Assembly (NCBI GenBank): GCA_949285105.1
Contig: CASDXH010000007.1
Coordinates: 1 to 47,151, forward strand
DNA from: an uncultured Mycoplasma sp.
Lineage (GTDB): Bacteria; Bacillota_I; Bacilli_A; Mycoplasmatales; Mycoplasmoidaceae
DNA: 47,151 nt
Direction: 5' to 3'
Shown here: positions 348 through 24,964 of the stretch, piece after piece
How the letters are laid out: every line of letters starts with the position of its first letter
How positions within the stretch are numbered: position 1 is the stretch's first letter
Made by a program: the position numbers and the translations under genes
The notes under the pieces: model-generated
Told to the model about the DNA's origin: nothing
Database searches by the model: none
Seen by the model: only the letters and a program-made list of their open reading frames with translations

Positions 348-545
348 GTAAGAATCTTTTGAATAAGGTGAAATTCCTTTCTGGTAATTAGATTTATACA
401 GTTTTTAATTAAACAAAAATAAATCTTAGCCATCAGTAAAGTCTAGGATGAAAAGGTTCAAAAAAAATTGTATGTGCTTAATCGCCTGTAGATTGACCAT
501 TATATAACTTTTTATTACTCCGCATCGTGTATGCGGATTTTTTAT
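348..545 (+). ncRNA. FMN-riboswitch-like structured RNA with no downstream gene
   Basis: Seen: a 9-bp closing helix (352-360 with 451-459, one G-U pair), a hairpin with stem AAGG/CCTT (365-368 with 376-379) inside the motif GGTGAAATTCC, an 8-bp arm (390-397 with 419-426), and a 3' block reading GCC-CAGT-AAAGTC-GGATG (429-450). Known: these blocks and their order match the conserved core of the FMN (RFN) riboswitch. Differences: the G-rich segment after P1 is replaced by TGAAT, and one A/T arm stands where FMN riboswitches have several. The RNA begins at a good promoter and ends at a strong terminator, and the next gene lies on the opposite strand. It could be an orphan or trans-acting riboswitch, a variant with another ligand, or a decaying relic. 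Confident that it is an RNA unit; ligand unknown. Confidence 0.6.
519..545 (+). terminator. Intrinsic terminator of the FMN-like RNA
   Basis: Perfect 7-bp stem TCCGCAT / ATGCGGA (519-525 with 531-537) with a 5-base loop, followed by six T. If the RNA is a riboswitch this would be its expression platform, but no sense gene follows. Confidence 0.85.
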
Positions 546-24296: not shown

Positions 24297-24381
24297 GGGT
24301 AGTTAGCGAAGTGGCCAAACGCAGCTGACTGTAAATCAGTTACCTCGTGTTTCGGCGGTTCGAATCCGTCACTGCCCACCA
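24297..24381 (+). tRNA. tRNA-Tyr (GTA)
   Basis: 85 nt. The acceptor stem GGGTAGT / ACTGCCC pairs with one G-U; the anticodon arm CTGACT-GTA-AATCAG, a long variable arm and the TTCGAAT T-loop are visible. CCA is encoded. Confidence 0.95.
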
Positions 24382-24385
24382 TTAT

Positions 24386-24460
24386 TGGGCTGTAGCCAAG
24401 TGGTAAGGCAATAGACTTTGACTCTATCATGCGTTGGTTCGACCCCAACCAGCCCAGCCA
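24386..24460 (+). tRNA. tRNA-Gln (TTG)
   Basis: 75 nt. Acceptor TGGGCTG / CAGCCCA; anticodon stem ATAGA/TCTAT with loop CTTTGAC, anticodon TTG; T-arm TTCGACC; CCA encoded. Confidence 0.93.
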
Positions 24461-24475
24461 ATTAAAATAAATTTT

Positions 24476-24501
24476 AAAAAATGATTTTAACAATCATTTT
24501 T
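24476..24501 (+). other. Hairpin between tRNA-Gln and tRNA-Lys
   Basis: Perfect stem AAAAATGATT / AATCATTTTT (24476-24485 with 24492-24501) with a 6-base loop. The T-rich 3' arm makes it look like a weak terminator inside the tRNA array. It may lower expression of the distal tRNAs or mark processing. Confidence 0.45.
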
Positions 24502-24505
24502 CTAT

Positions 24506-24580
24506 GTCCCATTAGCTCAGCGGTAGAGCATTTCACTTTTAATGAAGGGGTCAAAGGTTCGATTCCTTTATGGGACACCA
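24506..24580 (+). tRNA. tRNA-Lys (TTT)
   Basis: 75 nt. Acceptor GTCCCAT / ATGGGAC; anticodon stem TTTCA/TGAAG with loop CTTTTAA, anticodon TTT; T-loop TTCGATT; CCA encoded. Confidence 0.93.
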
Positions 24581-24599
24581 TTTTTAAAAAACCATGGTT

Positions 24600-24685
24600 G
24601 CTGGAGTGGCGGAATGGTAGACGCACAGGACTTAAAATCCTGTGACAGCAATGTCGTAAGGGTTCAAGTCCCTTTTCCAGCACCA
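24600..24685 (+). tRNA. tRNA-Leu (TAA)
   Basis: 86 nt, type II with a long variable arm. Acceptor GCTGGAG / TTCCAGC (one G-U); anticodon loop CAGGACT-TAA-AATCCTG; T-loop TTCAAGT; CCA encoded. Confidence 0.95.
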
Positions 24686-24692
24686 TTTTTTT

Positions 24693-24766
24693 GCAGGTGT
24701 AGTTCAATGGTAGAACTATAGCCTTCCAAGCTATTAACGTGGGTTCGATTCCCATCACCTGCTCCA
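24693..24766 (+). tRNA. tRNA-Gly (TCC)
   Basis: 74 nt. Acceptor GCAGGTG / CACCTGC; anticodon stem ATAGC/GCTAT with loop CTTCCAA, anticodon TCC; T-loop TTCGATT; CCA encoded. Confidence 0.95.
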
Positions 24767-24781
24767 TTAAAAATAGTGATA

Positions 24782-24811
24782 AATATTCCATTAGGAATAT
24801 TTTTTATTTTT
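24782..24811 (+). terminator. Terminator after tRNA-Gly
   Basis: Stem AATATTCC / GGAATATT (24782-24789 with 24794-24801), 4-base loop, then TTTTT-A-TTTTT. Confidence 0.8.
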
Positions 24812-24854
24812 GTTAACAAGTTTTAATTGTATGGTTTAATGATTAAAATATTGT

Positions 24855-24860
24855 TATAAT
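24855..24860 (+). promoter_or_regulatory. -10 box of tRNA-Ser
   Basis: Consensus TATAAT 15 bases before the tRNA, after the terminator of the preceding array. No good -35 box at the right distance. Confidence 0.4.
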
Positions 24861-24875
24861 ATTAATTGTTATTTT

Positions 24876-24964
24876 GGAGATGTACTCAAGTGGTTAAGAG
24901 GGCACCCTGCTAAGGTGTTAGGTCGTTCTGCGGCGCATGAGTTCGAATCTCATCATCTCCGCCA
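24876..24964 (+). tRNA. tRNA-Ser (GCT)
   Basis: 89 nt, type II with a long variable arm (GTCGTTCTGCGGC region). Acceptor GGAGATG / CATCTCC; anticodon GCT between CACCCT and AAGGTG; T-loop TTCGAAT; CCA encoded. It has its own promoter box and terminator. Confidence 0.95.

Follow-up and report, generated by a model that had tools for sequence, protein, structure and literature searches.

A candidate stand-alone small RNA gene in Malacoplasma related to the FMN riboswitch

An RNA gene related to the FMN riboswitch occupies positions 348-543 of the plus strand of the window, the term used here for the whole analyzed stretch of 47,151 nucleotides, which is an entire contig (G000:C7) of a mollicute genome that reads TGA as tryptophan and whose host belongs to Malacoplasma. 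It was found to be a closed unit of promoter (314-341), FMN-riboswitch-like core (350-461) and terminator (519-543), as had been claimed in a preliminary description of this DNA. Judged from sequence comparison, its existence as an RNA gene is highly probable. The explanation favored in this study, regarded as fairly probable when taken as a whole, is that a copy of an FMN riboswitch gave rise to a Malacoplasma-specific small RNA gene, which would have been repurposed as a structured RNA acting in trans. The scaffold of a widespread riboswitch class was seemingly halved, fitted with a new 3' domain and, in reduced genomes, retained as an RNA gene of its own.

Transcription signals, folding and covariation

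The window begins at the contig end, which limits the upstream sequence that is visible. The promoter comprises a -35 hexamer TTGATT (314-319), a spacer of 16 nt and a -10 hexamer TATACT (336-341). In each of the six species found to carry the RNA, the -10 hexamer matches TATAAT at five or six of six positions and ends exactly 6 nt 5' of an invariant GUAAG. This constant distance suggests that the transcript probably starts at the first strand of the structure, and the predicted start coincides with the 5' strand of helix P0 (GUAA, 348-351), which pairs with UUAC at 515-518. From 348 the RNA runs through the core and a second structured domain (462-513) to an intrinsic terminator formed by TCCGCATCGTGTATGCGGA and TTTTTT, with the stem at 519-537 and the U run extending to 543. 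Terminator hairpin and U run occupy a constant position in the six species, directly 3' of a UACUC motif that is as invariant as GUAAG.

The downstream neighbor is a lipoprotein-like gene on the opposite strand (655-1440), and the next gene in sense orientation is a MiaB-like one with its start at 1504-1537, which is about 960-990 nt past the terminator. The absence of a gene to control in cis, stated in the preliminary description, was thereby confirmed for the window. The lipoprotein-like gene has a strong terminator of its own (615-638) that converges on that of the RNA. Elsewhere in the window, six tRNA genes are clustered on the plus strand at 24297-24961.

The core (352-459, plus strand) is closed by P1, in which 352-360 pair with 451-459. 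Inside it, the P2 hairpin AAGG-UGAAAUU-CCUU (365-379) carries the L2 motif of FMN riboswitches in a loop that is nearly invariant in the six species, and one of its pairs covaries. It is followed by a closing helix (382-385 with 429-432), homologous to C31-G84/G32-C83 of the FMN riboswitch, with two double-changed pairs (U-A/C-G and A-U/G-C). This helix encloses a single hairpin (390-426) in the place of P3-P4-P5, and all seven pairs of the central stem show double changes. P6 (433-448) bears an FMN-like L6 (UCAGUAAAGUCUAGGA), and its pairs are invariant; an extra A and a U at the equivalent of A85 were found in all six species. The second domain consists of an A-rich/U-rich helix and an inner hairpin with the loop UCGnnUAG, has five double-changed pairs and 90% of its cells paired, and was matched by no Rfam family.

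Double-sided changes occurred in 18 of the 56 pairs in the alignment of the six RNAs. The covariation score was 0.321, compared with 0.173 ± 0.018 for shuffled alignments (reached by 0 of 500 shuffles) and 0.071-0.137 when the structure was slid, and these controls do not represent probabilities because the alignment had been fitted to the first version of the structure and the sequences are related. P1 was under-counted in this analysis since two alignment rows are shifted; paired by hand, it has nine of nine pairs here and seven to nine of nine across the six species. P0 and P6 hardly vary and show no covariation, which consequently neither supports nor contradicts them. A protein-coding RNA or small ORF was also considered and rejected: the ATG frames within the RNA span 8-28 codons, the six species have no frame of common length or sequence apart from the P2 motif, and indels shift the frames.

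Relationship to the FMN riboswitch

The search with the covariance model RF00050 that the preliminary description had proposed returned a match at 350-461 (plus strand) with 31.7 bits, which falls short of the gathering score (66.2). The E-value was 7.3e-5 when 2 kb were scanned with all families and 9.1e-6 when the whole genome was scanned with this family. The G008 copy scored 29.5 bits, the other four members had no significant score, and Rfam families besides FMN gave chance-level matches only. As RF00050 is significant for G000 and G008 only, the case for descent is based on the layout common to both RNAs and on the reciprocal model.

The reciprocal model, R2, is a covariance model built from the orphan RNAs only. 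Run unfiltered on nine 3-kb loci containing canonical FMN riboswitches, it ranked the riboswitch first in all nine, with 19.7-41.5 bits against 14.9 for the next best match. Across 320 genomes of the order and 296 of the class (overlapping sets), R2 gave only two matches outside Malacoplasma at E<=0.01, in G119 (E 3.9e-5) and G337 (E 0.0046), and both are RF00050 riboswitches with 116 and 104 bits. The G119 match (locus L044), which is the closest outside Malacoplasma with 41.5 bits, belongs to a related genus within the family and is a canonical FMN riboswitch in front of ribD.

With the FMN riboswitch aptamer (RFN element, RF00050) the orphan RNA shares P1, P2 with its UGAAAUU loop, the two-pair helix that closes the lobe (C31-G84/G32-C83) and P6 with CAGUAAAGUC; their order and layout are the same, with P2/L2 followed by P6/L6 inside P1, and the covariance models match reciprocally. 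In contrast to the aptamer, it lacks P3, P4 and P5, in place of which one covarying hairpin (390-426) is found in six of six species, and it has an extra 3' domain, its own terminator and no sense gene. An FMN likeness acquired by convergence, with the RNA being an unrelated small RNA specific to the genus, would fit the four of six members that score insignificantly with RF00050. Such convergence is nevertheless quite improbable, as the model built from orphan RNAs matches FMN riboswitches in every tested locus and across genomes, the order P1, P2, closing helix and P6 is identical with the same loop motifs, and the G009 member carries GGUGGAAUUCC and CAGUGAAAGUC. Changes of this kind are also found in other FMN riboswitches. 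Descent from an FMN riboswitch is well supported by these comparisons and can be considered very probable. Since the RF00050 score lies below the gathering score, the inner lobe is replaced, the pocket is largely lost (see below) and no gene is associated, the orphan RNA should not be assigned to the FMN riboswitch family.

Distribution, gene neighborhood and riboflavin synthesis

Relatives were searched with BLAST and a covariance model built on the first five copies. The RNA was detected in six of ten Malacoplasma genomes (G000, G001, G002, G004, G008, and G009) at E-values of 2e-21 to 2e-30, with one convincing copy per carrier genome. The copy in G009, a genome left out of the model building, was found by the covariance model at E 2e-21. 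Pairwise identity of the RNAs ranges from 63 to 95% in the midst of unrelated flanks, and the G008 copy is 95% identical to that of the window. This identity in five other Malacoplasma species and the covarying helices place the unit beyond chance. No credible match was obtained with R2 in G003, G005, G006, and G007, all of which are draft assemblies. On a tree of the Der GTPase protein, carriers occur in both main Malacoplasma clades, and the RNA appears to be absent from G006 and from the group of G003, G005, and G007. The presence in both clades suggests that the RNA is likely ancestral in the genus; its loss from the four non-carriers is probable, and unproven given their draft state. Given its apparent absence from these four draft genomes, the RNA looks dispensable. 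Pattern searches gave no match in viral contigs, and among named genomes only three Malacoplasma or Mycoplasma MAGs were matched.

The genomic location of the RNA differs among most of the species compared. It neighbors an ABC-F gene in G001 and G002, argS and a ZIP-like gene in G004, thioredoxin and MFS genes in G009, and lipoprotein genes in G000 and G008. In the comparison of the locus that had been recommended at the outset, relatives keep RNA and terminator with no common sense gene 3' of the terminator in the six genomes. The possibility that a downstream gene is merely missing in the window was rejected on the same comparison. In G008 the RNA is flanked by two lipoprotein-like genes on the same strand (L011: 1-966 and 2076-3215), and in the record of G009 about 450 bases downstream of the copy (L041, 5721 onward) are masked as N.

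A leader or attenuator acting in cis on the next sense gene might be suspected from G001 and G002, where the ABC-F gene lies on the same strand about 80-110 nt past the terminator, and from G004, where the ZIP-like gene follows after about 60 nt. Against this, the RNA of G000 is followed by a gene on the opposite strand, the nearest downstream sense gene seen in G008 and G009 lies more than 500 nt off (part of the G009 interval being masked), different lineages have unrelated downstream genes, and inspection by eye revealed no conserved antiterminator. A cis-acting role is accordingly rated as highly improbable. No close orthologue (E<=1e-60) of the ABC-F gene of G001 and G002 was found in G003, G005, G007, and G009.

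Genes for riboflavin synthesis or uptake do not adjoin the RNA in any of the six species. RibB together with a canonical FMN riboswitch occurs only in G000 and G008 among the ten genomes of the genus. The canonical riboswitch of G000 (G000:C23:3040-3155, minus strand) scores 114 bits, has a normal core and directly precedes ribD and the riboflavin operon. Riboflavin synthesis was not detected in G001, G002, G004, and G009, which carry the orphan RNA, and as the RNA is kept in these four genomes it is uncoupled from riboflavin synthesis.

These distributions also bear on the option, raised in the preliminary description, that the RNA is a relic. A decaying leader of a lost riboflavin transporter or rib gene would account for a score below the Rfam cut-off, for the lack of a gene behind the RNA in the window and for its not being found in 4 of 10 genus members. 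It would not account for carriers in both deep clades, including the four in which riboflavin synthesis was not detected, nor for covarying helices, a fixed promoter spacing, a fixed terminator and a second domain not seen in FMN riboswitches. Moreover, the RNAs of G000 and G001 are 74% identical, a degree of conservation about equal to that of the Der GTPase protein (69%). The relic option was thus left unsupported and is highly improbable.

The FMN pocket and a putative trans-acting role

In the FMN aptamer, FMN lies between A48 and A85 and touches A99 of P6, and G10, G11, G32, G62, and G84 coordinate its phosphate (PMC7573352; also PMC10809319). The residue numbers were transferred manually to the orphan RNA, with the cmscan alignment as anchor. 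Only G98 and A99 of the pocket residues listed in PMC7573352 (A48, A49, A85, G98, A99, G10, G11, G32, G62, G84) are kept in six of six RNAs. A48, A49, U61, and G62 are gone along with the P3-P4-P5 lobe, J1/2 is A-rich and has lost the guanines G10 and G11, position 85 is U throughout, and positions 32 and 84 are variable members of base pairs. The orphan RNA is probably not an FMN sensor, its canonical FMN binding having presumably been lost. FMN sensing in the known way, or sequestration of the ligand as suggested in the preliminary description, finds no support in a core from which A48, A49, U61, and G62 are absent, the J1/2 guanines are lost and A85 has changed to U.

A stand-alone aptamer that still senses a flavin or another small molecule, with a pocket rebuilt between P2/P6 and the central hairpin, would make the RNA ligand-controlled or ligand-sequestering. 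L2, L6 and the closing helix rank with the best-conserved elements, and a change of ligand is known from variants of other riboswitches (PMC7266159), both of which favor such a sensor. It is nonetheless rather unlikely in view of the deletions in the pocket and the substitution at position 85 in all six RNAs, the lack of a common neighbor gene hinting at a ligand and the fact that riboflavin synthesis was not detected in most hosts. More broadly, a former FMN riboswitch that became a free-standing RNA gene and whose rebuilt core recognizes some other ligand or acts in trans as a clamp on a protein is put forward tentatively, as a possibility somewhat short of probable.

Under the favored explanation of a repurposed riboswitch copy, the RNA would have a promoter of its own, extend from G348 to around position 543, fold as a closed two-domain structure and end at a constitutive terminator. 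Of the aptamer, the rigid half made up of P1, P2 and P6 would be retained, but the P3-P5 lobe and the greater part of the FMN pocket are missing. In this half, G98 and A99 of P6, which touch FMN in the riboswitch, could pair with C86 and the new U85 (C86-G98 and U85-A99). Through these pairs, the P1-P6 stack that is bridged by FMN in the riboswitch may be locked without a ligand, so that base pairs would fill the slot between P1 and P6 and the half-aptamer would serve as a scaffold. No switching in cis would be expected. The best remaining reading appears to be a structured RNA that acts in trans, its conserved loops most likely binding a protein or another RNA.

Riboswitches are almost always gene leaders, and to our knowledge few trans-acting RNAs are known in this bacterial group, for which the orphan RNA would be a candidate. 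If the proposed reading is true, a riboswitch aptamer would have become a non-switch RNA in a minimal genome, a traceable example of the passage from a riboswitch to a different functional RNA. No published description of the orphan RNA was found, which is weak evidence of novelty as subscription journals were not covered. Riboswitch-related RNAs acting in trans are known with SreA/SreB and Rli55 of Listeria (PMC8079631), and the orphan RNA would resemble them in being able to act away from its own gene. However, SreA keeps a functional SAM aptamer and a cis operon, and Rli55 keeps a functional B12 aptamer and adjoins the eut operon (PMC8079631), whereas the orphan RNA has neither pocket nor cis target. 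Variant riboswitches with altered ligands, such as the ykkC subtypes and the purine and c-di-GMP-I variants (reviewed in PMC7266159), are likewise built on a known aptamer scaffold in which core positions have changed. Their changes affect the pocket and they remain gene leaders, whereas in the orphan RNA half of the aptamer is replaced and no gene follows.
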